DNA from: Papillibacter cinnamivorans DSM 12816
GTDB lineage: Bacteria; Bacillota; Clostridia; Oscillospirales; Oscillospiraceae
Assembly: GCF_900176335.1 (NCBI RefSeq)
Contig: NZ_FWXW01000004.1
Location: 248,001-312,000, forward strand
Length of the DNA: 64,000 nt
Direction of reading: 5' to 3'
Position 1 is the stretch's first letter; each line of letters starts with the position of its first letter. Of this stretch, positions 21,600-38,296 are shown piece after piece. The notes below the pieces were generated by a model that was not told the DNA's origin, did not search any database, and saw only the letters and a program-made list of their open reading frames with translations. Both the position numbers and the translations under genes were made by a program.

Positions 21600-22259
21600 T
21601 TAGATTCGCTTATCTCCGATTTTTGCCAGACGCATGCCGATCTCCTGCAGAATCTGAACAATGATTACAAGAAGCGCCACGGTGACCAGCATGATGTTTG
21701 TCTGATACCGGTAATACCCGTAACGGATGGCGATGTCGCCCAGACCGCCGCCTCCCACGATCCCCGCCAGGGCGGAGTAGCTGAGAATGGTGGTGACCGC
21801 GATGGCGGCTCCCACCAGGAGAGAGGGCCGGGCCTCCGGCAGCATCACCTTCCAGACGATCTGGAAAGGGGACGCCCCCATGGACTGAGCCGCCTCGATA
21901 ACGCCCTTGTCGACCTCCTTGATGGAGCTTTCCACCAGCCTTGCGACAAAGGGGGCGGAGGCGATGACCAGGGGAACGATGGTCGCCGTGGGTCCCAGAG
22001 AAGTGCCCACGATCGCCCGGGTGACCGGGATAAGGGTGATGAGCAGGATCAGAAAGGGAACCGAGCGGAGGAGATTGATGATGACGCCCAGAATCTGATT
22101 GACAACCGGCTGGGGGCCCAGCCCGTTTTTATCGGTGATCACCAGGGCGATGCCCAGGGGCAGCCCGATCACATAGGCCAGCGCGGAGGAGACCAGCGTC
22201 ATATAGAGGGTGTCTACAACGCCCTGGGCGATCATTTTTACGACGACCTCACTGAACAT
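21600..22259 (-). CDS. metI: Methionine ABC transporter permease MetI
   Basis: The protein has 219 residues with five hydrophobic segments, the normal size for MetI. The coupling region E-A-A-Q-S-M-G-A-S-P-F-Q-I-V-W-K-V and the motif L-P-E-A-R-P-S-L are typical. Its start overlaps the end of metN by 11 bp, so the two are translationally coupled. It forms the homodimeric channel of the MetNIQ importer. Confidence 0.92.
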   Translation of the reverse strand: MFSEVVVKMIAQGVVDTLYMTLVSSALAYVIGLPLGIALVITDKNGLGPQPVVNQILGVIINLLRSVPFLILLITLIPVTRAIVGTSLGPTATIVPLVIASAPFVARLVESSIKEVDKGVIEAAQSMGASPFQIVWKVMLPEARPSLLVGAAIAVTTILSYSALAGIVGGGGLGDIAIRYGYYRYQTNIMLVTVALLVIIVQILQEIGMRLAKIGDKRI

Positions 22260-23268
22260 GCTCCCGCACCTCCTCCGCTGTGAGTCCCTGGGACCGCAGG
22301 TATTCCAGCATCTTATCCGCCACGTCGTCCGTTTCGGGAAGCTGGATGACGATCTGTCCGAAGGCGCGCCCGTCGATGTCCTTGGTGTCTGCGAAAATAA
22401 TATTCACCGTCCGGTGAAATTTAAGTACCATGTCGGCAATGACCGGCTGGAAGGAGGAATTGCCGTCGAACACGATGCGGCAGCGCCGGTTCCCCTTGAA
22501 GGAATCGGTCTGCATGCCGTCCGGGTAAAACATGCGCTTTGCCGCCGCCGATTTCGGCCGGAGGAACACCTCGTCCACGTTACCGATTTCGGCGATCCGA
22601 TGCTCATCGATAATCGCGACCCGCCTGCAGATCCCCTCGATGACCCCCATCTCATGGGTGATGACCACGATGGTTACCCCCAGGCGCCGGTTGATATCCC
22701 GGAGGAGCTCCAGAACACCCCGGGTGGTGGAGGGGTCCAGGGCGCTGGTGGCCTCGTCGCAGAGAAGGACCTGCGGGTCCGTGGCCAGGGCCCGGGCGAT
22801 GGCCACCCGCTGCCTCTGCCCGCCCGACAGCTGCGAGGGATAGGCCTTAGCCTTGTCGGGAAGCCCCACCAGATCCAGGAGCTTTTTTGCCTTTTCCGCT
22901 GCCTCCGCTTTTTTGACTCCCGCGATTTCCAGGGGAAAGCAGACGTTTTGCAGGGCATTTCTCTGCATCAGGAGGTTGAACTGCTGAAAAATCATTCCCA
23001 TGGACCGCCGCACCCGGTAAAGCTCCGGGAGAGAGAGCCTGGAAAGATCACGGCCGTCGAAATAGATGGCGCCGGTCGTGGGCTGCTCCAGAAAATTGAT
23101 GCACCTTACCAGCGTGCTCTTTCCGGCACCGCTCATTCCGATGATCCCGAAGATTTCACCGCGGCGGATTTCCAGGCTGATGTCGTCCAGCACCTTCACT
23201 ACGCCGCCGGAGGTGGGAAAGCTCTTGCCGAGCCCCTCAATCCTGATGATCGGTTCCAAATCGCTCAA
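22249..23268 (-). CDS. metN: Methionine ABC transporter ATP-binding protein MetN
   Basis: The protein has 339 residues. Walker A G-M-S-G-A-G-K-S-T-L, signature L-S-G-G-Q-R-Q-R and Walker B V-L-L-C-D-E-A-T are intact, and residues 260-339 form the C-terminal NIL (ACT-like) domain that binds methionine and gives trans-inhibition in MetN proteins. The start is a TTG six bases after AGGGAGGG. It is first in metNIQ. The promoter at 23377-23405 and an intrinsic terminator at 23309-23333 lie in the leader; no SAM-riboswitch-sized structure fits between them. Confidence 0.93.
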   Translation of the reverse strand: MSDLEPIIRIEGLGKSFPTSGGVVKVLDDISLEIRRGEIFGIIGMSGAGKSTLVRCINFLEQPTTGAIYFDGRDLSRLSLPELYRVRRSMGMIFQQFNLLMQRNALQNVCFPLEIAGVKKAEAAEKAKKLLDLVGLPDKAKAYPSQLSGGQRQRVAIARALATDPQVLLCDEATSALDPSTTRGVLELLRDINRRLGVTIVVITHEMGVIEGICRRVAIIDEHRIAEIGNVDEVFLRPKSAAAKRMFYPDGMQTDSFKGNRRCRIVFDGNSSFQPVIADMVLKFHRTVNIIFADTKDIDGRAFGQIVIQLPETDDVADKMLEYLRSQGLTAEEVREHVQ

Positions 23269-23308
23269 GACGATCCCTCCCTTCGCGCGTTATAAATTCT
23301 TCCCCCGC

Positions 23309-23333
23309 AAAAAAACCCGGCATGCTTCCGGGT
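23309..23333 (-). terminator. Intrinsic terminator in the metN leader
   Basis: On the minus strand ACCCGG-aagcatg-CCGGGT is followed by seven T residues (23309-23315). It falls about 40-60 nt after the predicted transcript start and 40 bp before the TTG start codon. Confidence 0.7.
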
Positions 23334-23376
23334 ATTGCCTTCAATTTCCTTCGTGCGCGGTGGGATTGTCCTCATT

Positions 23377-23405
23377 ATCTTAGGATAATCCGGAAGGTTT
23401 GTCAA
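23377..23405 (-). promoter_or_regulatory. metNIQ promoter
   Basis: TTGACA (23400-23405, minus strand), 17-bp spacer, TAAGAT (23377-23382). Confidence 0.75.
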
Positions 23406-23499
23406 CGAAGAAAACATACCGCCCGATATCCGGGCGGACATTCCGCTCCCTCCGGCGGGGATACGGCGCCGAAAGCCCAGGCGGAGTTTTCGGCGGGCT

Positions 23500-24432
23500 T
23501 TATTCGGAAAACATGGGAGTGGACAGATATCTCTCTCCGGTATCCGGAAAGATGACGACGATGGTCTTGCCCGCATTCTCCGGGCGCATTGCCAGCTGGG
23601 ACGCCGCCCAGGCCGCGGCACCGGAGGAGACGCCCACCAGCAGGCCCTCGGCCCTGGAAAGCTCGCGTCCCGTGCGGTATGCGTCCTCGGCTTTTACCCG
23701 GATGACTTCGTCATAGATATGGGTGTTGAGCACCCGAGGCACAAAGCCCGCGCCGATGCCCTGGATCTCATGAGGGCCGGAACGCCCTTCCGACAGAACC
23801 GGCGAATCCTCCGGCTCCACCGCCACAACCTGAAGCCCGGGATTTTTGGATTTGAGGTATTCTCCGGTTCCGGTAATCGTTCCTCCGGTACCCACGCCGG
23901 CAACCAGTATGTCCACCTTTCCGTCCGTATCCCGCCAGATTTCGGGACCGGTGGTTTCCCGGTGGGCTTTGGAATTGGCCGGATTCGTAAACTGGCCGGG
24001 GATATAGGCGCCAGGAATTTCTCCTGCCAGCTCCTCGGCCCTGGCGATGGCGCCGGACATGCCCTGGGCGCCGTCGGTAAGCACCAGTTCCGCCCCATAC
24101 GCCTTTAAGAGGTTTCGGCGTTCCACGCTCATGGTTTCGGGCATGGTGAGAATCACCCGGTATCCCCGGGCCGCCGCAACCGCGGCAAGCCCGATTCCGG
24201 TATTGCCGCTGGTGGGCTCCACTATAACCGAGCCGGGCTTAAGAATTCCTTTTGCTTCCGCGTCTTCAATCATGGACATTGCGATGCGGTCCTTGCTGCT
24301 GCCCGCCGGATTGAAGGATTCCAGCTTTGCCATGACCGTCGCCTTGAGATCGTATTTTTTTTCAAAATTGACGAGCTCCAGAAGGGGAGTGTTGCCGATA
24401 AGCTCATTTAAGCTCCTGTGTACGTTGGACAT
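23500..24432 (-). CDS. cysK: Cysteine synthase A (O-acetylserine sulfhydrylase)
   Basis: The protein has 310 residues from the ATG at 24432 after AGGAGG; a long upstream extension of the frame is not used. N-P-A-G-S-S-K-D-R carries the PLP lysine (K47), P-T-S-G-N-T-G is the substrate loop and V-G-T-G-G-T-I-T-G binds the PLP phosphate. It makes cysteine from O-acetylserine and sulfide. No cysE is adjacent. It has its own TTGACA/TATTAT promoter and lies upstream of metNIQ on the same strand, forming a small sulfur-amino-acid region. Confidence 0.95.
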
Positions 24433-24510
24433 GGCGTTACCTCCTGTATGTCGGCTGCCCCGAAACGATTCAAGTATATATTTCAAATGCCCCGGAAGAA
24501 AGCGTGTATT

Positions 24511-24631: not shown

Positions 24632-25639
24632 TCACTGGGAAACACTGTCGGAATCGGCGCTGCCGACGAGTGTGTCGTACAGCCGGCAGGCCACCAGGTG
24701 TCCGTTCCCCACATCCCGGAGCGGGGGACAGATTCGGTCGCAGCCCTCAAAGACCTTGAAGCAGCGGGAGGCGAAGCGGCATCCCTCACCCGGATCGATG
24801 GGACTTGGCACATCCCCCTTGAGGATGATCCGTTCCTTTTTTCGGGTGACGTCGGTGACGGGAATGGCCGAGAGCAAAGCCTGGGTATAGGGGTTGAGGG
24901 GCTTTTCGTACAACTCCCGTTTGGAGGCGATCTCCATGAGTTTTCCCAGGTACATGACGCCCACCCGGTCGCTGATATGCTTGACCACGTTGAGCCCGTG
25001 AGCGATGAAGAGATAGGTCAGACCGAACTCGTCCTTCAGGTCGTGGAGAAGGTTCAGCACCTGGGCCTGGATGGACACATCCAGGGCGGACACCGGTTCG
25101 TCGCAGACGATGAGCTTCGGCTGTACCGCCAGGGCCCGGGCGATCCCGACCCGCTGGCGCTGTCCGCCGGAAAACTCGTGGGGATACCGGTTCCGGAGGT
25201 GGTTAGCCAGACCTACGCAGCCCAAAAGATAATTTACCCTTCCCTCCACTTCGGAGGAGGGAAGCAGATGGTTGATCCGGATGGGTTCGGCAATGATGTC
25301 CCCGATGGTCATCCGGGGATTGAGGGAGGCATAGGGGTCCTGAAAGATGAGCTGGATATCCCGGCAGCACTTTCTGCGCTCCTCCTCGTCCATGGCGGTG
25401 AGGTCGCGTCCGTCGAAGAGAATGGTGCCGGAAGTGGGCCTGTAGAGGTTCACCAGCATTTTTCCGATGGTGGTTTTCCCACAGCCGGACTCTCCTACGA
25501 GGCCGAAGGCCTCGCCCCGCCGGATTTCAAAAGAGACGTCGTCCACCGCTTTGAGGACCGACGTCGGCCGGCCGAAAAAGTCGGTCCTCACGGTAAAGTA
25601 TTTTTTCAGATTTTTGATTTGTACCAGCGGTTCATTCAT
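24632..25639 (-). CDS. Oligopeptide/dipeptide ABC transporter ATP-binding protein (OppF/DppF-like)
   Basis: The protein has 335 residues. Walker [10 protein letters not shown], signature F-S-G-G-Q-R-Q-R and Walker B L-I-V-C-D-E-P-V are complete, and the C terminus has the oligopeptide-transporter extension with C-R-F-A-S-R-C and a further Cys that in this family can hold an Fe-S cluster. Its start overlaps the preceding oppD-like gene by 8 bp. It is the last gene of the peptide operon and would pair with that ATPase. Confidence 0.92.
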
Positions 25640-26612
25640 GGCGGTCTTCCTCCACTTCTTCGCTGTACAAAAAGCACCGGACCTTGGAGCCGTTTACCGG
25701 AACCAGGGCGGGCATATGTTTTCTGCATTTTTCCATGCACCTGTCGCACCGGTCGGAAAAAGCGCAGCCCGGGGGCATATGCAGAGGATTGGGCACCATG
25801 CCCCGGATCATGGAAAGCCTCTCCCGCTCGTCGTCCAGCCGGGGGATGGATTCCAGCAGCCCCACGGTATAGGGATGCATCGGGGAAGTGAACAGGGTCT
25901 TCACGTCCGCCTCCTCCAGGATCTTTCCGCAGTACATGACGACGACCCTGTCTGCTGCTTCGGCCACCACTCCCAGGTCGTGAGTGATGAGAAGAACGGC
26001 CATGTTCAGTTTTTCCCGGAGGCTGTAAAGAAGCTCCAGGATCTGAGCCTGGATGGTCACGTCCAGGGCGGTGGTGGGTTCGTCCGCGATGAGAAGCTCC
26101 GGGCGGCAGGAGAGGGCCATTGCGATCATGACCCGCTGGCGCATGCCGCCGCTCATCTGATGGGGATAGTCGTTTGCCCGGGCCTCCGGCGAAGGGATCC
26201 CAACCAGGTCCAACATTTCCACGGTTCTGCGGAGAGCTTCCTCCTTGGTAAGCTTCATATGGGTCATGATGCTCTCCATAATCTGATCCCGGATCCGCTG
26301 CACCGGGTTTAGAGACGTCATGGGCTCCTGAAAAATCATGGAGATCTGATCTCCCCGGATCTTCTGCAGTTCGTGAAGGGGAAGGCGGGTGAGATCGTTC
26401 CCCTTGAAGAGGATTTCGCCTTTCGCGATCCGTCCGGGCGGGGAAATAAGCCCCATAATGGACAGCGAGGTGACGCTTTTCCCGGAGCCGGATTCTCCCA
26501 CGATGGCGAGGATTTCTCCCTTGTCCACGGAAAAGCTCACGTCGTCCACCGCGTTGACAACGCCTTTTTTCAGATGGAATTCAGTTGTCAGATGTTTTAC
26601 TTCCAGCAGCAT
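25632..26612 (-). CDS. Oligopeptide/dipeptide ABC transporter ATP-binding protein (OppD/DppD-like)
   Basis: The protein has 326 residues with Walker [10 protein letters not shown], signature M-S-G-G-M-R-Q-R, Walker B L-L-I-A-D-E-P-T and the C-terminal [13 protein letters not shown] peptide-transporter extension. It starts 16 bp after the second permease and overlaps the next ATPase gene, so stoichiometric expression is expected. It powers import by the DppBC-like permeases. Confidence 0.92.
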
Positions 26613-26628: not shown

Positions 26629-27531
26629 CTATAGTTGCCTGGACTTGGGGTCCAGCGCGTCGCGCAGACCGTCGCCCAGCAGATTGAATGCCAGCACCGT
26701 GATTGTAATGGCGATGCCGGGGAAAATCAGGGTGTAGGGGGCGGAAAAGATAAAGCCCCTTGCCCTGCCCAGCATATCTCCCCATTCCGCGTAGGGCGGC
26801 TGAACGCCCAGACCCAGAAAACCCAGGGCCGAGGTGTCCAGCACTGCCGTGGAGATGCCCAGGGTGGCCCGGACCACAATGGAGGACAGGATGTTCGGCA
26901 TGATATGCTTGAAGATGATGCGCCCGTCCCGGTTGCCCACCACCCGGGCGGCCTGGACATAGTCGTTCTCCTTCACCGAGAGGATACAGCCCCGCACGAT
27001 CCGGGCGTATTCCGGTATGGAGACCAGGCCGATGGCGATGACCGCCTTGTCAAGGCCCTTGCCCAGGGCGGCCATGAAGGCGATCGCCAGCAGAATGGAG
27101 GGAATGGCCAGCATCATATCCATAAAGCGCATGATAACGGTGTCGGTTTTGCCGCCCCGGTAGCCGGCGACAGCGCCCAGGATAATTCCCGCCGTAAGGG
27201 AAATGGCTACGGCGGAAAGCCCTACCGTGAGAGATATGTGCGTACCGTAGATGATACGGGAAAAGATGTCCCTTCCCAGCTGATCGGTCCCGAACCAGTG
27301 CTCGGGTCCCGGAGGAAGAAAACTGGCGCCCATATCGGACAGATTCGGATCGTACGGCATGAGCCAGTGGCCGAAAACGGCGACGAAAATCAAAAACAGG
27401 ATGATGCCCAGTCCCACCAGGGCGCCTTTGTTGGACTTAAGAGCGTCCCACATTTCCCGTATCTGGGATTCCGGCTTTTCCAGAGGTTCGGCGGCGGCTG
27501 CCGCGGAAGTGTCAAACGGCTTGTCTTCCAC
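26629..27531 (-). CDS. Peptide ABC transporter permease (OppC/DppC-like)
   Basis: The protein has 300 residues. The N-terminal cytoplasmic tail, about six membrane segments and the motif [17 protein letters not shown] with [11 protein letters not shown] are typical of DppC/OppC. It begins 3 bp after the stop of the partner permease. DppC-type permeases carry di- or oligopeptides, and some family members carry nickel chelates. Confidence 0.92.
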
Positions 27532-27534
27532 GCT

Positions 27535-28551
27535 TCAGGCCTCCTCTCTGGTGTACTTGATCCGGGGATCGAGAAAAGCGTAGATGATGTCCACTACCAA
27601 ATTGATGATGACGAAGGTGATGGCTACCAGCATCACGACCCCCTGGACCACCGGAAAGTCGGACTTCAGGATACAGTTCACCGTATAGGAACCGATCCCG
27701 GGCCAGGAAAAGACCGTCTCCGTGAGAACCGCTCCTCCCAGAAGGGAGCCCAGCTGCAGGCCGATTACCGTGACGATGGGGATGAGGGCGTTTCGCAGCG
27801 CGTGCTTCCGGATGACCTTGCCCTCCGTGATTCCCTTGGCTCTGGCCGTCCGGATATAATCCTGCCCCAGAGTGTCCAGCATGGTGGAGCGGGTCATGCG
27901 GGCGATGATGGCCATGGAATACATACCCAGGGCGACGGTGGGGAGAATCAGGTGCCGCAGCGCATCCACAAAGGCCTTCATGTTTCCGGCCACCAGGCTG
28001 TCGATGAGATAAAAGCCGGTTACCGTGTCGGGCCGCAGCAGAGGATCGATCCTGCCCCCCGAGGGGAGAATGTGAAGAACGCCCGCAAAAAGGATGATGA
28101 GCAGAATGCCCAGCCAGAAGATGGGCATGGATACGCCCAGCAGCGCTGTGACCATTCCCGCGCTGTCCACCACGGTATTTTTCTTCACCGCCGAAACAGT
28201 CCCTATGACAATTCCCAGTATGGAGGCGAAAATGATGGAAGAGACGGCAAGCTCGATAGTGGCCGGAAACCGGGCCATGATTTCACGGATAACCGGCGTT
28301 TTTGTGTAATAGGAGGTGCCGAAATCTCCGGTAAAGACGCCCTTGATGAAATTCAGATATTGTATGTGTAAAGGAGCGTTCAGGCCGTTCGCCTCGCGCC
28401 AGGCCTCCGTGGCCGCAACGGTGGCGTGCTGCCCAAGGACGATGGGCGCAGGGTCGGGCGAAAACACCCGCATGATGACGAACACAATGATGGAGACCCC
28501 GATGAGAACCGGGATCAGCAGGAGAAGCCGCTTGATGATGAATTTGAGCAT
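27535..28551 (-). CDS. Peptide ABC transporter permease (OppB/DppB-like)
   Basis: The protein has 338 residues counted from the ATG at 28551 (10 nt after AGGAAAGG; two TTG codons just upstream are too close). The start M-L-K-F-I-I-K-R-L-L-L-L-I-P-V-L and the motif T-A-R-A-K-G-I-T-E-G-K-V-I-R-K-H-A-L-R-N-A-L are characteristic of DppB. A hairpin-rich 297-bp gap separates it from the binding-protein gene, probably lowering permease expression relative to binding protein. Confidence 0.9.
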   Translation of the reverse strand: MLKFIIKRLLLLIPVLIGVSIIVFVIMRVFSPDPAPIVLGQHATVAATEAWREANGLNAPLHIQYLNFIKGVFTGDFGTSYYTKTPVIREIMARFPATIELAVSSIIFASILGIVIGTVSAVKKNTVVDSAGMVTALLGVSMPIFWLGILLIILFAGVLHILPSGGRIDPLLRPDTVTGFYLIDSLVAGNMKAFVDALRHLILPTVALGMYSMAIIARMTRSTMLDTLGQDYIRTARAKGITEGKVIRKHALRNALIPIVTVIGLQLGSLLGGAVLTETVFSWPGIGSYTVNCILKSDFPVVQGVVMLVAITFVIINLVVDIIYAFLDPRIKYTREEA

Positions 28552-28725
28552 GGGCAACAAACCTTTCCTAAGGTATCGGACCGCAGTCTGGATTTGCCGG
28601 GGAAAACCGTCGGCCTGCCGTTTGCCTGACGGAAATCAGTGGATAAACCGCTTCCTCCTTGAGGAAGACGGCGGAAAGCTCTGGAAAAAGCGCGCCCGGA
28701 AAAAGAACCCGGAAAACCCGAAGCA

Positions 28726-28763
28726 TGCCTTGCATACGCCGGAAACCCGCCGCATGCAAGGCA
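28726..28763. other. Intercistronic inverted repeat, oppA-oppB gap
   Basis: TGCCTTGCAT (28726-28735) and ATGCAAGGCA (28754-28763) form a perfect 10-bp stem with an 18-nt loop. It lies within the 297-bp gap after the binding-protein gene and has no T-run. Confidence 0.55.
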
Positions 28764-28795
28764 CTGCCTCGCCGTTACAATCCGGCGCCCGGTCC

Positions 28796-28822
28796 GGAAT
28801 CCGCCCGTTTTGGGCGGATTCC
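28796..28822. other. Strong hairpin just after the peptide-binding protein gene
   Basis: GGAATCCGCCC (28796-28806) pairs with GGGCGGATTCC (28812-28822), loop GTTTT. It is 27 bp beyond the stop of the binding-protein gene. With no T-run it is more likely a 3' stabiliser or partial terminator that favours binding protein over permeases. Confidence 0.65.
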
Positions 28823-28848
28823 GGTCAGACGGACAGCCGGATAAGTGT

Positions 28849-30429
28849 TTAGTTGGTCTTGGACATCTGAGACAGGAAGATATTGCCCGTCACATGGTAA
28901 TAGTAACCCTGAACCTTGGGGCTGTATGCGGAGAGCAGTTTGGAGTGGGAAATCAGCAGCCACGGGTTCTCGTCCACCTGGATCTGCTCCAGCTGCTTGT
29001 AGATGGCGTCGCGGTCCGCGCCTTCGGGAGCGGCCTTGCCCTGGGCAATGAGATCGTTGTATGCGGCGTTGTCATAGCGGGCCACGTTCATGGCGGGATC
29101 CTTGTCGGACAGCAAAGACATGAAGTTGTCCGGATCGCCGTTGTCGCCGGTCCAGCCGTAGAAGCAGATGTCGTAATCGCCGGCCTTGACCTTTTCCTTG
29201 TAAGTGGTCCAGTCGAACACGTCGATGGTGCAGTCGACGCCCACCTTGGCGAGATAGCCCTGAATGGCCTCGGCAAGGACCTGCCCGGTAGCGGTGTTAT
29301 AGGGGCGGGGGTTGGAATAGGAGATCATATGCACCTTGGTGACGCCGGCAGCCGCGAGGGCCGTCTTGGCGGCGTCAGGATCATAGGAGACCTGCTTGAT
29401 GTCCGCGGAGAAGCCGGGGACAAAGCTGGGAAGAATGGTGTCGGCGGGAGAGGCGTAACCCTGATAGAGGCTCTGCACCAGTTCGGGAACGTTCACGGCC
29501 TGGGAGAATGCCTTGCGGGTTGCGGCATCCTTGAAGATGTCGGAGGTGGTGTTGTATGCCATGTAGTTGATGTTCATGCCGTCCGGCTGATCCACGATGT
29601 TGCCGGCAGCCGTGATCTCATCCACGACGGTTGCATCGATGCCGTCGATCATATCCACTTCGCCGTTGTTGAGGGCGACCACACGGGCGGAGTTATCCTT
29701 GATGATCCGGAAGATTACGTTTTCGGTGACCGCTTTGTCTCCCCAGTAGTCGTCGTTGCGGACAAGAACGATATCCTGCTCCTTGTCCCAGCGGACGAAC
29801 TTGTAGGGGCCGGTGCCCACGGGGTTCTCGTTGAGGTTGCCGTTGTATTCCTCAAGAGCCTTGGGGCTGACCATGGGAGCCGCCATGCTCATGGCGAGGT
29901 TGTACAGGAAGGGGGTGCAGACATCCTTCAGGGTGATGGCGACGGTGTAGTCGTCGATGACATCCACCTTGGTGACATAGCCGTAGACAAAGTCGGCGTA
30001 AGTCATATCCGTGGTGGCGTTGCCCTGCATCTGGCGCTCTACGTTGACCTTCACGGCCTCGGCGTTGAAGTCGGTGCCGTCATGGAACTTGACGCCCTGA
30101 CGCAGATGGAAGGTGTAAACCAGCCCGTCGTCGCTGACGTCCCAGGACTCGGCCAGACACGGCTCCAGCGCGGTGGAGTCTTTCGCGTACTTGAGAAGGC
30201 CTTCATAGATGTTGACGATGACTTTGGAGGATTCGCCGTCATCCACCATGGCGGGATCCAAGCCTCTGGGATCGGCGCCCTGGGCGAAGATCAGCGTATC
30301 CGCCAGGGTGGCCTCGGTGGGAGCCGGTGTGGCGGTAGTGGAAGCGGAGCCGCCGGAGCAGCCAGCCAGCAACCCGATACACAGAACCAGAGACAGTGCA
30401 AGAGCAAGGAACCTGTAATTTTTCTTCAT
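28849..30429 (-). CDS. Peptide ABC transporter substrate-binding lipoprotein (family 5, OppA/DppA-like)
   Basis: The protein has 526 residues from the ATG at 30429 after GAGGGAGAT; the frame extends 28 codons upstream through the leader RNA and is not used. Lipoprotein signal: MKKNYRFLALALSLVLCI then L-A-G-C, followed by a Thr/Pro/Ala-rich linker. The mature protein shows the SBP family 5 pattern (A-Q-G-A-D-P-R-G-L-D-P-A, L-R-Q-G-V-K-F-H-D-G-T-D-F). It delivers peptides to the BCDF components. It lies 138 bp after the prolidase gene, a gap filled by a switch-like RNA structure. Confidence 0.9.
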   Translation of the reverse strand: MKKNYRFLALALSLVLCIGLLAGCSGGSASTTATPAPTEATLADTLIFAQGADPRGLDPAMVDDGESSKVIVNIYEGLLKYAKDSTALEPCLAESWDVSDDGLVYTFHLRQGVKFHDGTDFNAEAVKVNVERQMQGNATTDMTYADFVYGYVTKVDVIDDYTVAITLKDVCTPFLYNLAMSMAAPMVSPKALEEYNGNLNENPVGTGPYKFVRWDKEQDIVLVRNDDYWGDKAVTENVIFRIIKDNSARVVALNNGEVDMIDGIDATVVDEITAAGNIVDQPDGMNINYMAYNTTSDIFKDAATRKAFSQAVNVPELVQSLYQGYASPADTILPSFVPGFSADIKQVSYDPDAAKTALAAAGVTKVHMISYSNPRPYNTATGQVLAEAIQGYLAKVGVDCTIDVFDWTTYKEKVKAGDYDICFYGWTGDNGDPDNFMSLLSDKDPAMNVARYDNAAYNDLIAQGKAAPEGADRDAIYKQLEQIQVDENPWLLISHSKLLSAYSPKVQGYYYHVTGNIFLSQMSKTN

Positions 30430-30459
30430 CGTTATCTCCCTCACTTTATTTTTTATATG

Positions 30460-30531
30460 AAAAAAGCGCCTGCCATAAACGGCAAGCACTTTGCTTGTTG
30501 TGACTAAAAGCACGTTTTAGCCGTTTATGCA
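30460..30531 (-). ncRNA. Candidate cis-regulatory leader RNA (three-way junction versus terminator)
   Basis: Read on the minus strand, CATAAACGG/CCGTTTATG (P1, 9 bp: 30521-30529 with 30474-30482) encloses two contiguous hairpins: CTAAAA/TTTTAG (P2, 30504-30520) and CAAGC/GCTTG (P3, 30483-30497), with only TCACAA between them. The alternative fold GTGCTTGCC-gtttat-GGCAGGCGC (30466-30489) followed by six T residues (30460-30465) is an intrinsic terminator that uses the 3' arms of P1 and P3. The two folds exclude each other, as in riboswitches and attenuators. The class is not recognised; ligand or protein unknown. Confidence 0.55.
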
Positions 30532-30567
30532 ATCCCTGCGGAATTGAAATTGTTCAGCCGGCCCGCA

Positions 30568-31647
30568 TTACAGGACGGTGATCTCCCTGGAAAAGGCGTT
30601 GAGGGTTTCACAGCCCGTTTCCGTGACCAGCACCAGGTCCTCGATGCGCACGCCCCCGATACCGGGCAGATAGATGCCGGGCTCGATGGAAAAGGTCATT
30701 CCCGAGGCGGCGGGGGTGTTGTTTGCGGCAGACACGTCGCCGGCCTCATGGACCTCGATCCCGATAAAATGTCCCAGGCGGTGGTTGAAATACTCTCCGT
30801 ACCCCGCCGCCCGGATGATTCGGCGGGCTTCTTCGTCGATCCTGCTCATGGGAACTCCCGGGCGGATGACGCTCCTGGCCGCCTCGTTGGCCCGCTTGAC
30901 CAGGGCATAAATTTCCCGCAGCCGGTCTGATACCTCTCCCAGGAAAAAGGTCCGTGTCATGTCGGAACAGTATCCGTCTTTGATGCATCCGATGTCCAGG
31001 ATTGCGCAGTCTCCGGGACGAAGAACGGTGCCGTCCGGCACGTGATGGCCCTCCGCCGCGTTGGCGCCGAAGGCGACGATGGGCTCGAAGGAAATGCCGT
31101 CCGCTCCCAGCCGCCGAAAAATCCTCGCTGTCTCTTCCGCAAGCTCCGTTTCGGAGATCCCCGCCCGGAGAGCCCGCGCGGCTTCCTCCATGGCTCTGTC
31201 GTTGAGGTGTGACGCCCTGCGCATCCGGCCGGCTTCCTCTTCATCCTTGCACTGGCGCACCGCGTCCGCGCAGACGGAGGCGTTGACATATCCCGATGCC
31301 GCTCCCAGTTCCATGAGGCGAAGGAGCACCCAGGAGCACATATTCCGGTCCACGCCCAGCGCTCTGGTGTTATCTGTGAGGCCTGCCAATATTTTTGCCG
31401 CGTCCTGCGTGTCGTCGTACGGTACGACATGGATATCCGGATCCGCCGGAGCCGGGAAAAGCCGGTTGATCATCAGAAAACAGCCGCTTATTTTTATGTA
31501 TAGAGCAAGCAGCCGTTCTCCGGAGTCGATTCGGCTTCCCGTGAGGTAAAAAATAGCGGCAGGGTCCGTAATTACCATTTGCTCAAGGCCCCGTCCCGCC
31601 AATTCGTTAAGTATCTTTTTCAGTCTGGTTTTATTCACTGCCGTCAC
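30568..31647 (-). CDS. M24-family Xaa-Pro peptidase (prolidase-like)
   Basis: The protein has 359 residues, starting at GTG six bases after AAAGG. An N-terminal creatinase-type domain (about 1-125) precedes the pita-bread peptidase domain with the metal ligands in D-I-G-C (Asp), S-D-M-T-R-T-F (Asp), G-H-F-I-G-I-E-V-H (His), S-I-E-P-G-I-Y (Glu) and V-R-I-E-D-L (Glu). All five are present. It should cleave Xaa-Pro bonds in imported peptides, which suits its position as first gene of the peptide-transport operon. Confidence 0.88.
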   Translation of the reverse strand: MTAVNKTRLKKILNELAGRGLEQMVITDPAAIFYLTGSRIDSGERLLALYIKISGCFLMINRLFPAPADPDIHVVPYDDTQDAAKILAGLTDNTRALGVDRNMCSWVLLRLMELGAASGYVNASVCADAVRQCKDEEEAGRMRRASHLNDRAMEEAARALRAGISETELAEETARIFRRLGADGISFEPIVAFGANAAEGHHVPDGTVLRPGDCAILDIGCIKDGYCSDMTRTFFLGEVSDRLREIYALVKRANEAARSVIRPGVPMSRIDEEARRIIRAAGYGEYFNHRLGHFIGIEVHEAGDVSAANNTPAASGMTFSIEPGIYLPGIGGVRIEDLVLVTETGCETLNAFSREITVL

Positions 31648-31750
31648 TTCTGCCTTTTAAAGGGATAAATTCTCCCGACACAAATCGGATGCGTCATTTC
31701 CAGATTTCCGGGAGATAGGACACGAATCCTGAAAGGCGATTCAGTTTATC

Positions 31751-31787
31751 AATGTGCTTATCATAGCACATTTCTCGTTTTTTTCAA
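31751..31787 (-). promoter_or_regulatory. Promoter and palindromic operator of the prolidase/peptide-transport operon
   Basis: TTGAAA (31782-31787, minus strand), 16 bp, TATGAT (31760-31765). The palindrome AATGTGC-N8-GCACATT (31751-31772) covers the -10 region, so repression is likely. The rest of the 31648-31965 gap contains no ORF and no further structure that I can defend. Confidence 0.6.
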
Positions 31788-34017: not shown

Positions 34018-35346
34018 TTACGCCTCCGCCGAGGCCGGTTTGCCCGTATCCGGTCCCGGTTTGCCCGCCGAGGGCCCTTCCGCGGCCGTGCTTCTCCGTG
34101 CGTTGGCCAGCATCAGCTTGATGCGGTTTTCCTGATTGATCTTGGTGGCTCCCGGATCGTAGTCGATAGCCACGATATTGGAATGAGGGAAGTCGTCCTT
34201 GAGCCGCCGGATCATGCCCTTGCCCACCACGTGGTTGGGAAGGCAGCCAAAGGGTTGGGTGCAGACGATGTTCCCCGTGCCGCTTTCGATGAGCTCCAGC
34301 ATTTCCGCCGTGAGAAGCCATCCCTCTCCCATCTTGTTGCCCTCTCCCAGATAGCCGTGGATCAGCTCCTTCAGGTGGGAAAAGGGAACCGGCGCCCGGA
34401 AGGAGGAGTTGTTTCGGATGGAGGAGATCATGGCCCGCTGACATTTTTCCACATAGCGCTTGAAGATGCGCACCACGATTTTTTTAAGGAAACTCCCGCC
34501 GTACAGATCGATATCCACGTCCCGGTTGTCGATCTTGAAGATGATGAAATCGGTGAGGCCGGGGACCACAGGCTCCGCTCCCTCGGAGCGAAGGAAATCC
34601 TCCAGGTTGTTGTTCCCCAGGGGGGCGAATTTGATGTAGATCTCCCCCACGATGCCCACCCGGGGCTTGGAAGGACCCTCCAGGGGAATGGAGGCAAAAT
34701 CCCGGACGATTTTGTCGCAATTTTTCACCATGCCGGGATAGTTGAGTCCCTTGCCCTCCTTGAAGCCGTCGATAAGCCGCGCCATGCACCTCTCGATCAT
34801 TGCGTCCGTGGCTCCCGGTTCCTTCTCGTAGGGGCGGCACTGGTTTGCCACCTGGACGATGATGTCTCCGTACATCATGGAGAAGATCATCTGGCGGATC
34901 AGGGTGAGAGTGAGGGAAAACCCCGGGTTTTTTTCCAGCCCAGACAGGTTCACCGAAACCACGGGGATATAGTCCATTCCCGCCTTTTTCAGGGCCTTGC
35001 GCAGAAGGTGGATATAGTTGGACGCCCGGCAGCCTCCTCCGGTCTGGGTGATAAGAAGCCCCACCTTGTGCATGTCGTAACCCCCGTGCTTCACCGCGTC
35101 GATGAGCTGTCCGATGACCAGCAGGGCAGGGTAGCAGGTGTCGTTGTGAACGTATTTGAGCCCCTCGTCCACGATCCCCCGGTGATGGGTGGTGAGCATG
35201 TCCACCTTGTAGCCGGCCAGCTGCATGCACCGCTGCATCATGGAAAAATGCACCGGCAGCATCTGGGGCATGAGAAGGGTGTACTCCTGTTTCATCTCTT
35301 TGGTGAACAGGAGCCTTCCCGTTTCGTCGTAAACCAGTTTAGCCAT
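34018..35346 (-). CDS. 2-hydroxyacyl-CoA dehydratase-type activase-related protein (Cys-rich component)
   Basis: The protein has 442 residues. It resembles the DUF2229/HgdB-like half of large activase proteins: H-N-D-T-C-Y-P-A-L-L-V-I-G-Q, L-I-T-Q-T-G-G-G-C-R-A-S-N-Y and C-T-Q-P-F-G-C-L-P-N-H-V contain the cysteines expected to hold an Fe-S cluster. Its start overlaps the end of the 985-residue activase gene by 8 bp, so the two are translationally coupled and probably form a complex. No HgdAB-type dehydratase or CoA-transferase gene is nearby, so the target is not known. Confidence 0.78.
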   Translation of the reverse strand: MAKLVYDETGRLLFTKEMKQEYTLLMPQMLPVHFSMMQRCMQLAGYKVDMLTTHHRGIVDEGLKYVHNDTCYPALLVIGQLIDAVKHGGYDMHKVGLLITQTGGGCRASNYIHLLRKALKKAGMDYIPVVSVNLSGLEKNPGFSLTLTLIRQMIFSMMYGDIIVQVANQCRPYEKEPGATDAMIERCMARLIDGFKEGKGLNYPGMVKNCDKIVRDFASIPLEGPSKPRVGIVGEIYIKFAPLGNNNLEDFLRSEGAEPVVPGLTDFIIFKIDNRDVDIDLYGGSFLKKIVVRIFKRYVEKCQRAMISSIRNNSSFRAPVPFSHLKELIHGYLGEGNKMGEGWLLTAEMLELIESGTGNIVCTQPFGCLPNHVVGKGMIRRLKDDFPHSNIVAIDYDPGATKINQENRIKLMLANARRSTAAEGPSAGKPGPDTGKPASAEA

Positions 35347-38296
35347 TGGCTGCCTCCTTGGGCTTCGTTGCTGCCTTTTCCCTGGCGTCGATGGCGGCCA
35401 GCAGGCTCCGGATCCGGATCCGCACCGCGCCTAAGTTGTTGATATCGTCGATCTTCAGCTGGGTGTACAGCTTCCCGCAGCGCTCCAGGATGTCCCGCAT
35501 CTCGTCCCCGGTGATGGCGTCGATGCCGCAGCCGAAGGAGACCAGCTGCACCAGATGCATGTCCGGCTGGGTGCAGACATACCGGGCGGCGGAGTACATC
35601 CGTGCCTGGTAGGTCCATTGGTTTAAGACCTTCCGGCTCTCTTTGGAGACAAGGTGGGAAAGGGCGTCCTCGGAAATAAGGGCGAGATCAAAGGAGGTGA
35701 TAAGCTCGTCGATCCCGTGGTTGATCTCTGGGTCGATGTGATAGGGCCTGCCGGCCAGGACCAGAATCCGTTTCCCGTTTTCCCTGGCGAAGCGGATGAT
35801 TTTTTCCCCCTCCAGACGGATATCCTCCTTATAGGCGGCGTAGGCCTCGTAAGCCGCGTCCACCGCCGCCCGGGTCTCCCCTTTGGGGATCTGAAACTCT
35901 CGGAGGAAATACTTTTCCGCCCGGAGCTTAAAGTCCCGGGGCCGGTGAAGACCGAAATAGGGATTGAGGTACCGGATCTGCTTGAGCCTGGGGATGTTTG
36001 CCCCGATGAGCTCCGGGTAATAGGCCACCACGGGGCAGTTGTAATTGTTGTCGCCGCTTTTTTCGTCGAAGTTATAGGACATGCAGGGGTAGAAAATGGT
36101 GTCCGCTCCCATGTCCAGAAGGGCCTCCACGTGCCCGTGCATCAGTTTGGCCGGATAACACACCGTGTCCGAGGGGATGGTGTGCTGCCCCTTGATGTAG
36201 AGCTTCCGGGAAGATTCGGGAGACAGGACCACTTCAAATCCCAGCTTTGTGAAAAGAGCGTGCCAGAAGGGAAGGTTTTCATACATGTTCAGGCCGAAGG
36301 GGATGCCGATTTTTCCCCGGGGGCCGGGAATGCCCGTGAGCGAGCGGAGCTTTTCGTATTTGTAGCGCAGAAGATTGGGCATGGTGGAAGCAGCCTTGCC
36401 CAGGGGTCGCTGGCAGCGGTTTCCCGAGATGAACCGGCGTCCGTTGTCAAACTGGTTCACCGTAAGGCTGCAGTGGTTGGTGCACAGGCCGCAGGTGGCC
36501 GGTTTTGCAGTGTGAGTGAAGCCCTTCAGCTCTTCCGCCGTCAGAAGGGAGGTCTGAGTAAGCCCCAGATCCTTGGCGTAGAGAGCCGCGCCGTAAGCTC
36601 CCATGATTCCCGCGATGACGGGGCGGGTGACGTTGCGCTCAAGCTCCACCTCAAAGCTGCGAAGCACCGCGTCGTTTAGGAAAGTACCGCCCTGTACTAC
36701 GATGTGTTTTCCCAGATCGTCCGCGCTGGCGGCCCGGATGACCTTATAGACCGCGTTTTTCACGATGCTGATGGAAAGCCCTGCCGAGATTGCCTCGACG
36801 CTGGCGCCTTCCTTCTGGGCCTGCTTCACCGAAGAGTTCATGAATACGGTGCACCGGGAACCCAGATTCACCGGGTGCTCGGCAAAGAGCCCCAGCTTTG
36901 CAAAATCCGCGATGGAGTAGCCCAGGGCCCGGGCGAAGGTCTCGATGAAGGAGCCGCAGCCCGAGGAGCATGCCTCGTTGAGCATGATGCTGTCCACCGC
37001 GCCGTTTCGGATCTTGAAACATTTCATGTCCTGGCCGCCGATGTCGATGATGAAGTCCACGTCGGGATTGAAGTGCCGGGCCGCCCGGTAATGGGCGATG
37101 GTTTCCACGAGGCCCGCGTCTACCCGGAATGCGCTTTTGATGAGATCCTCGCCGTAGCCCGTCACGGCGCTGCCCCGGATATGGATCCGGTCTCCGCACA
37201 GCTCGTGAATCTTCTCCAGCTGGCCTTTGACCACCGAGACGGGATTTCCGGCGTTGGAGCTGTAATAGGTGTATAAGATCCCGCCTTCCGGCGTGATGAG
37301 CGTAAGCTTGGTGGTGGTGCTCCCCGCGTCGATGCCCAGATACGCGTCGCCCTCGTAGGTATCCGGATCTATCATCCCGGGAGCATTGGCGTTGTGCCTT
37401 TTGAGAAATGCGTCGTATTCCGCCCGGTCTTTGAAAAGGGGCGGGAGAGTGTCCGCCATGGAGGTGCTGTCCACCGCCTCCTCCAGCTTGCGGAACATGG
37501 TTTCAAAGGGCATGGGCTCATAGTCGGCGGCGCACAGGGCGGCGCCGATGGCGGCAAAGCAGTCCCCGTTCTCCGGGAAAATGGCGTGCTCCTCGTCCAG
37601 GTGCAGGGTCTCCGTGAAGCGCTCCCGCAGCCCTTTGAGAAAATGCAGCGGCCCACCCAGAAAGACCACTTTGCCGGAAAGCTCCCTGCCCTGGGTCAGG
37701 CCCGAGATGGTCTGGTCCACCACCGCCTGGAAGATGGAGGCCGCCACGTCCTCCTTGCGCCCGCCCTGGTTGAGGATGGGCTGGATGTCCGATTTGGCGA
37801 ACACGCCGCAGCGGGAGGCGATGGGATAGATCTTTTCGTGCTTTAAAGAAAGCGCATCCAGCTCCTCCACCGAGATGTTCATGAGGGTTGCCATCTGGTC
37901 GATGAAGGCGCCGGTGCCGCCTGCGCAGGAGCCGTTCATCCTCTCCTCCAGGCTGCCCTTGAAGAAGATGATCTTGGCGTCCTCGCCCCCCAGCTCGATC
38001 ACGGCGTCCGTGTCCGGGATATACTCCCGCACGGCCGCGGCGGTGGCGTACACCTCCTGGACGAAGGGAAGGGAGCTGGCCTTGGCCACGCCCAGGCCGG
38101 CCGAACCCGTGATCAGCATGCGCACCTGCCGCCCGGAAAGCATTTCCTGGATCCCCCGGAGGATCTCGCAGGTTTTTTCCCGAACCTTGGAAAAATGCCG
38201 CTCGTAGGAGCGGAACAGAAGCGTTCCGTCCCCGTCCAGCACCACCACCTTCACGGTGGTGGAGCCGATATCGATTCCTATTTTTAAATTCGTCAT
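35339..38296 (-). CDS. Large acyl-CoA dehydratase activase (double BadF/BcrA-type ATPase with DUF2229)
   Basis: The protein has 985 residues. Two ASKHA-fold ATPase domains are in tandem: I-G-I-D-I-G-S-T-T-V-K at 6 with C124 in N-G-S-C-A-G-G-T-G-A-F, and L-G-I-D-A-G-S-T-T-T-K at 320 with C443/C447 in N-E-A-C-S-S-G-C-G-S-F. These cysteines bridge a [4Fe-4S] cluster in HgdC-like activases, which use ATP to inject an electron into a partner enzyme. Residues from about 640 form the DUF2229 region with C-x2-C-x2-H-C. The length equals that of a known but poorly characterised clostridial family. It heads an operon of three genes and has palindromes upstream. Confidence 0.85.
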   Translation of the reverse strand: MTNLKIGIDIGSTTVKVVVLDGDGTLLFRSYERHFSKVREKTCEILRGIQEMLSGRQVRMLITGSAGLGVAKASSLPFVQEVYATAAAVREYIPDTDAVIELGGEDAKIIFFKGSLEERMNGSCAGGTGAFIDQMATLMNISVEELDALSLKHEKIYPIASRCGVFAKSDIQPILNQGGRKEDVAASIFQAVVDQTISGLTQGRELSGKVVFLGGPLHFLKGLRERFTETLHLDEEHAIFPENGDCFAAIGAALCAADYEPMPFETMFRKLEEAVDSTSMADTLPPLFKDRAEYDAFLKRHNANAPGMIDPDTYEGDAYLGIDAGSTTTKLTLITPEGGILYTYYSSNAGNPVSVVKGQLEKIHELCGDRIHIRGSAVTGYGEDLIKSAFRVDAGLVETIAHYRAARHFNPDVDFIIDIGGQDMKCFKIRNGAVDSIMLNEACSSGCGSFIETFARALGYSIADFAKLGLFAEHPVNLGSRCTVFMNSSVKQAQKEGASVEAISAGLSISIVKNAVYKVIRAASADDLGKHIVVQGGTFLNDAVLRSFEVELERNVTRPVIAGIMGAYGAALYAKDLGLTQTSLLTAEELKGFTHTAKPATCGLCTNHCSLTVNQFDNGRRFISGNRCQRPLGKAASTMPNLLRYKYEKLRSLTGIPGPRGKIGIPFGLNMYENLPFWHALFTKLGFEVVLSPESSRKLYIKGQHTIPSDTVCYPAKLMHGHVEALLDMGADTIFYPCMSYNFDEKSGDNNYNCPVVAYYPELIGANIPRLKQIRYLNPYFGLHRPRDFKLRAEKYFLREFQIPKGETRAAVDAAYEAYAAYKEDIRLEGEKIIRFARENGKRILVLAGRPYHIDPEINHGIDELITSFDLALISEDALSHLVSKESRKVLNQWTYQARMYSAARYVCTQPDMHLVQLVSFGCGIDAITGDEMRDILERCGKLYTQLKIDDINNLGAVRIRIRSLLAAIDAREKAATKPKEAANG

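Follow-up and report, generated by a model that had tools for sequence, protein, structure and literature searches.

The element described here resembles two kinds of described systems, namely 1) operon-internal (intercistronic) terminators and attenuators and 2) transcriptional ON riboswitches. Termination inside operons is already known; one study reports internal termination sites within 38% of the operons of an archaeon (PMC10450193). Like such systems, our locus has a terminator between co-directional genes of an apparent operon, with just 30 nt left to the start codon that follows; it differs from them in carrying an unusually long competing helix and in that its read-through is predicted from sequence alone. 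With the ON riboswitches it shares a compact junction that overlaps, in its 3' strand, the 5' arm of a terminator, but the conserved aptamer, covariation and family match of a riboswitch are missing. To our knowledge, the known riboswitch classes are conserved across species. The hairpins of ANTAR-type antiterminators have hexaloops with conserved A and G; a two-hairpin antiterminator of this type was set aside, the loops in the window being of five bases. In literature listings and the openings of abstracts, no description was seen of an element like this one ahead of a transporter linked to a prolidase.

The window, i.e., the whole analysed stretch of 64,000 nucleotides from Papillibacter cinnamivorans DSM 12816, contains the following features around the element:

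30568..31647, minus strand: M24 (prolidase/aminopeptidase-type) peptidase gene (Pfam Peptidase_M24 2.4e-69, Creatinase_N 5.6e-14)
30436..30440, minus strand: Shine-Dalgarno-like GGGAG before the binding-protein gene (from the sequence)
28849..30429, minus strand: family-5 solute-binding lipoprotein gene (DppA/HbpA-like), 526 aa (Pfam SBP_bac_5 1.1e-98; lipobox by eye)
27535..28560, minus strand: DppB-type permease gene (Pfam; NCBIfam DppB model below cut-off)
26629..27531, minus strand: DppC/OppC-type permease gene (Pfam)
25632..26612, minus strand: DppD-type ATPase gene (Pfam ABC_tran and oligo_HPY)
24632..25639, minus strand: DppF/OppF-type ATPase gene (NCBIfam matches strong but below cut-offs)

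The closest solved chains to the binding protein are heme-binding protein A and the dipeptide-binding protein, and it passes no NCBIfam cut-off. The peptidase and binding-protein genes are separated by a gap of 138 nt, which holds the whole element on the minus strand, the same as that of the neighbouring genes, so that the leader reads from 30531 to 30460. A first-pass annotation of this DNA had placed the element between a prolidase gene and transporter genes, and the Pfam assignment of a prolidase-type peptidase bears this out. In the order of transcription, the components of the element are the following:

30520..30529, minus strand: P1 5' arm CATAAACGGC (the 9-bp form drops the last C)
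30504..30520, minus strand: P2 hairpin CTAAAA-CGTGC-TTTTAG (present within the hairpin of predicted leader folds)
30483..30497, minus strand: P3 hairpin CAAGC-AAAGT-GCTTG (3' arm common to the 5' arm of the terminator)
30474..30483, minus strand: P1 3' arm GCCGTTTATG (covers the inner 5' arm, the loop and one 3'-arm base of the terminator)
30460..30492, minus strand: intrinsic terminator AAAGTGCTTGCC-GTTTAT-GGCAGGCGCTTT followed by a T run (12 bp, 6-nt loop, T6)

All helices proposed in the first-pass annotation, i.e., P1 of 9 bp, P2 of 6 bp and P3 of 5 bp with TCACAA as the joining strand of the junction, are present on the minus strand, and P1 (CATAAACGG/CCGTTTATG) has a longer form of 10 Watson-Crick pairs, in which 30529-30520 pair with 30483-30474. 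The terminator has the G+C-containing hairpin with a T run directly after it that defines an intrinsic terminator, and the hairpin alone has a predicted energy of -18.9 kcal/mol. Because its 5' arm reuses the 3' arm of P3 and the start of the 3' arm of P1, terminator and junction are mutually exclusive, as the annotation had claimed when it described a terminator competing with the junction through shared arms, and the alternative fold stands to the expression platform as it does in a riboswitch.

We consider it most likely that the feature is an ordinary, perhaps leaky, terminator rather than a new riboswitch. More specifically, with a probability of roughly one half, we read it as an operon-internal terminator between the prolidase-type and transporter genes that acts as a partial stop, with P1, P2 and P3 as a lineage-specific competitor. 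Such a terminator would halt part of the RNA polymerases, and the level of the transporter would then differ from that of the peptidase. P1 would form once the terminator loop is transcribed, ahead of the 3' arm, which could slow the formation of the terminator and increase read-through, and this effect would require neither a ligand nor a protein. If the competing fold is functional, the locus would be a simple example of an operon-internal terminator that gained an antiterminator and became regulated.

The part of this reading that concerns the operon draws on the terminator with its T6, on the gene order and weaker hairpin of one relative (described below) and on matches to the promoter consensus upstream of the prolidase gene, the first of which is:

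31760..31787, minus strand: predicted promoter TTGAAA, 16 nt, TATGAT, with TG before the -10 box, upstream of the prolidase gene (10 of 12 consensus matches)

The consensus scan at the prolidase promoter found this one match where 0.7 were expected, and at the equivalent position of the syntenic relative (L133, 6404-6432) there is a match of 9 of 12. Scanning of 30300-30800 gave no match, so that the 138-nt gap is free of them. One further match, the only one in 28400-31700, lies inside the prolidase gene at 30998-30969 (9 of 12), which is no more than chance would give (1 found vs 1.2 expected). The promoter scans are thus close to the shuffle expectation, which makes them weak evidence and counts against our reading. 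Nevertheless, the predicted promoter at 31760-31787 is likely that of the operon, and the promoter matches, taken with the gene order shared by one relative, speak for an operon that has a terminator within it. We infer that the peptidase and transporter genes are co-transcribed and that the terminator between them is probably operon-internal. The -10 box of the predicted promoter is also covered by an inverted repeat, AATGTGC-TATGATAA-GCACATT (31751-31772), which is a possible candidate for a repressor operator.

The case for P1 as a competitor comes from predicted folding and from its length. With RNA parameters, the 86-nt leader folds into the junction at -17.2 kcal/mol, compared to -20.6 kcal/mol for the terminator plus P2. 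In a model of the growing transcript, P1 is paired with a probability above 0.93 from the emergence of its 3' arm until the 3' arm of the terminator is nearly complete, and the terminator exceeds 0.97 after the last bases of its 3' arm appear. The annotation had named minimum-energy folding that never populates the junction as a result that would speak against it; in the model the P1 fold dominates until the terminator 3' arm is nearly complete, and many of the P1 states depart from the exact three-way junction, having the 10-bp P1 around another inner hairpin. A nested-path search on a longer leader places the barrier from P1 to the terminator at 19.7 kcal/mol, an upper bound as pseudoknotted strand exchange was disallowed. 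In the complete leader the terminator prevails at equilibrium, with a mean pairing of 0.90-0.998 depending on the 5' end, and this value is near that obtained when the upstream sequence is shuffled (0.948 vs 0.951 in shuffles with 39 nt upstream; 0.916 vs 0.933 with 75 nt upstream), which argues against our reading. Since the upstream sequence hardly weakens the terminator at equilibrium, any effect of P1 would rest on kinetics, which could favour read-through.

As a background for the length of P1 we collected, by one rule, 88 terminators from the window and 396,713 further bases of the same genome (461 kb). The Watson-Crick competitor at the P1 site, with 10 pairs, is the longest among the 88, the next two having 8 pairs, and it is the sole one of at least 9; it also ranks first among the 20 terminators placed mechanically between two same-strand ORFs. 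In terms of Watson-Crick length the P1 alternative fold is therefore an outlier, unusual in its own genome. Hairpins like P3, of at least 5 bp, accompany 5 of the 88 terminators (the P3 site included). When the 75 nt upstream were shuffled and the terminator kept, a Watson-Crick helix of at least 10 bp with the terminator arose in 24 of 4000 shuffles. Helices of this length are not rare when G-U pairs are allowed, which again weighs against our reading: shuffling the 75 nt upstream produces them 396 times in 4000, and 4 of the 88 terminators have them, with the P1 site among the four. The 86-nt leader has a folding z of -2.88 (1 of 200 shuffles as good), and a 140-nt stretch has a z of -1.59 (13 of 200 as good), which is not significant. 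At the stage before the 3' arm of the terminator, the transcript with 39 nt upstream reaches -19.9 kcal/mol compared to a shuffle mean of -11.8, with 4 of 1000 shuffles as low, and with 75 nt upstream 74 of 1000 shuffles are as low. The tests were devised after the site was seen, and 14 of the 88 terminators lie inside the window; consequently, the significance that remains after multiple testing is modest.

The genus of the window is represented by one genome, the window's own, and homologues were sought in the family and the order. The binding protein was found at E 1e-150 or better only in its own genome and in one other (G218) of 400 family genomes, at 1e-120 only in G218 among 6 genomes of the genus of G218, and at 1e-180 only in its own genome among 296 relatives that overlap with the 400 family genomes. 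G218 is the sole syntenic relative found; its binding protein is 77% identical and the gene order is the same. The corresponding gap in G218, of ~90 nt, contains a weak terminator-like hairpin (AAAAGCG/CGCTTTT arms, 13-base loop, -6.1 kcal/mol) that the consensus scan does not count as a terminator, and the leader lacks P1 and P2. The absence of P1 and P2 speaks against our own reading, and against the proposal of a riboswitch in the terms of the first-pass annotation, which had held that homologous loci without either of the alternative folds would refute it; the leader of G218 is one such locus in a close homologue.

More widely, the leaders of binding-protein orthologues were read at 44 loci, namely 43 of at least 80 named relatives (L019 to L062 without L057, where the contig starts inside the gene) and, in addition, L100; loci L063-L098, of at most 41% identity, were scanned only with the hairpin model R2 introduced below. 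Under a lax rule, some terminator-like hairpin lies within 250 nt in 13 of the 44, and some of these hairpins may belong to upstream genes. An M24 gene lies upstream in only one of the 44, that of G218 (several loci have short flanks), and the binding protein was found in the flanks of none of 11 other M24 homologues from 394 genomes of the order. A DNA homology search of 300 family genomes matched 10, namely the window's own and nine with short matches, which were rejected as homologues when read, being generic terminators or unrelated stretches.

A terminator-like leader hairpin does recur in orthologues from Caproiciproducens, Ruminiclostridium and relatives, and these hairpins form a third group with which the locus can be compared. 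By eye, the hairpin is conserved directly after a promoter-like sequence in five named loci, and 2 of its 11 pairs have changes on both sides among the five sequences. A model of the hairpin, R2 (alignment A3, built without the window), recovered unprompted a further orthologue leader, L189. The hairpins are located as follows:

L019:2868-2915, L020:2842-2890, L021:2889-2934, L023:2834-2882, L024:2859-2906 and L189 near 1501 (minus strand): orthologue leader hairpins

As in the window, AAGC...GCTT stands at the 5' flank of the hairpin; in all six loci the AAGC-N6-GCTT overlaps its 5' arm, and the predicted mRNA would begin with the hairpin. Unlike the window terminator, these hairpins directly follow what looks by eye like a promoter, and in the five measured the distance to the gene is 72-122 nt. 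They are candidates for a promoter-proximal attenuator or 5'-end stabiliser, and by comparative evidence they are better supported than the window junction. The window terminator is the top match of R2 in 480 kb, yet at 16.2 bits and E 3.2. We rejected its homology with the orthologue hairpins as unproven, given this E value and the higher scores of unrelated terminators in the order: at E 0.05 or better R2 has 23 matches in 21 of 187 order genomes, one of them beside the binding-protein gene, and 22 matches of at least 27.7 bits in the order are not beside that gene. The window's own genome has no R2 match at E 0.05.

The main rival of the operon-internal reading, which has an appreciable chance of being correct while falling well short of even odds, is that the hairpin is an ordinary end-of-gene terminator of the prolidase gene, with a transporter promoter that the scan missed and with P1, P2 and P3 as coincidental complementarity. 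P3 would then have a plain origin, as the AAGCAAAG flank that makes it is the reverse complement of the CTTTGCTT tail that two-way terminators can carry. The plus strand of the hairpin can likewise be read as a terminator, with the tail TTTGCTT, and several R2 matches in the order that lie away from the binding-protein gene show a TTTGCTT tail or a AAGCAAAG flank (R2 itself selects that flank), which makes this origin of P3 possible; the TGCTT tail is, however, not common in the window's own genome, where 7 of the 88 terminators carry it. The missing P1 and P2 in G218 and the frequency of P1-length helices with G-U pairs fit coincidence as well. On the other hand, there is no promoter match in the 138-nt gap, the T run is only 30 nt from the ATG, P1 has more Watson-Crick pairs than the competitor of any other of the 88 terminators, and hairpins like P3 are found at 5 of them.

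An undescribed small-molecule riboswitch, in which a ligand would bind the three-way junction, keep P1 and P3 and block the terminator, with the transporter ON, is unlikely in our estimation. In its favour are the compact junction that is mutually exclusive with a terminator and the folding at the stage before the terminator 3' arm, which with 39 nt upstream surpasses 996 of 1000 shuffles. A riboswitch would also be expected to have an aptamer conserved across species with covarying helices, and none was seen with a junction covariance model (R1) built from the single sequence and run over 400 family genomes with strict filters, a design that limits sensitivity and may lose weak matches. R1 matched 3 of the 400 genomes, namely its own site and two others, neither of them a gene leader, and no covariation could be counted as no homologues of the junction were found. 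The first of the two (L135, in G182) has P1-like arms, a hairpin and then a GGCGC-T-rich stretch at E 3.8e-5 per genome (~0.015 over 400 genomes by a rough calibration), and it is the strongest result against reading the extra matches of R1 as chance; we rejected it as a chance match, since the ORFs on its two sides converge and it extends into one of them, so that it is not a leader. The second (L136, E 0.005) is a plain terminator and was likewise attributed to chance. Neither in 8 named orthologue loci nor at that of G218 did R1 find a leader match, and in the own-genome stretches nothing elsewhere was better than E 0.98, the opposite strand of the site itself having E 0.0016. Rfam 15 detects only two tRNAs in the whole window and no riboswitch in 18 related loci; at a relaxed threshold the leader has six matches, all far below the gathering scores, and the best of them (Atu_C9, 16.9 bits compared to a gathering score of 40) was rejected, being on the plus strand over the bare hairpin. 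The conservation of known riboswitch classes across species, mentioned above, points the same way, as does the spaced pair of P1 arms, which occurs once in the genome. The latter also led us to reject the P1 repeat as a DNA operator, as CATAAACGGC is not enriched (20 occurrences vs 18 for the reversed control). With P1 and P2 absent from G218, only two non-leader matches of R1 and no Rfam match at threshold, the riboswitch reading of the first-pass annotation does not find support, and a ligand-gated riboswitch is a possibility that these results leave unsupported. A junction that sensed a peptide or an amino acid would represent a new class of riboswitches for peptide uptake. For the present, the locus chiefly shows that a good-looking junction and terminator in one genome, without relatives, are no evidence of a riboswitch.

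We likewise assign a low probability to a recent, species-specific attenuator in which a 10-bp antiterminator with nested hairpins would be stabilised by a peptide-uptake signal (dipeptide, amino acid or RNA-binding protein), so that production of the transporter would be tied to expression of the peptidase. As to the substrate of the transporter, sulfur-containing peptides are as plausible as proline peptides, because the genes that come next, 3' of the transporter genes (22249-24435, minus strand), are those for cysteine synthase A (above the NCBIfam cut-off) and a MetN-like ATPase (below its cut-off). G218 has a different gene at this position, threonine-aldolase-like by eye.

Least likely of all is an attenuator run by a trans-acting protein, an sRNA or leader-peptide translation instead of a metabolite: the geometry suits an antiterminator/terminator pair and a TTG-initiated frame of 28 codons spans the leader (by eye), but, again by eye, the Shine-Dalgarno spacing of that frame is poor and its codons form no telling run, none of the 11 neighbouring proteins scanned belongs to an antiterminator family (one has no Pfam match), and G218 has no comparable leader.

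Two further features of the window, both on the minus strand, are of separate interest. At 34018-38296, two large adjacent ORFs resemble what we take to be a 2-hydroxyacyl-CoA dehydratase activator-type pair, the smaller of them having no Pfam match at 1e-5. Right behind the stop codon of the binding-protein gene (by eye), at 28794-28824, there is a perfect hairpin of 13 bp without a T run, which is possibly an mRNA 3' stabiliser or processing site that would keep the binding protein in excess over the permeases.
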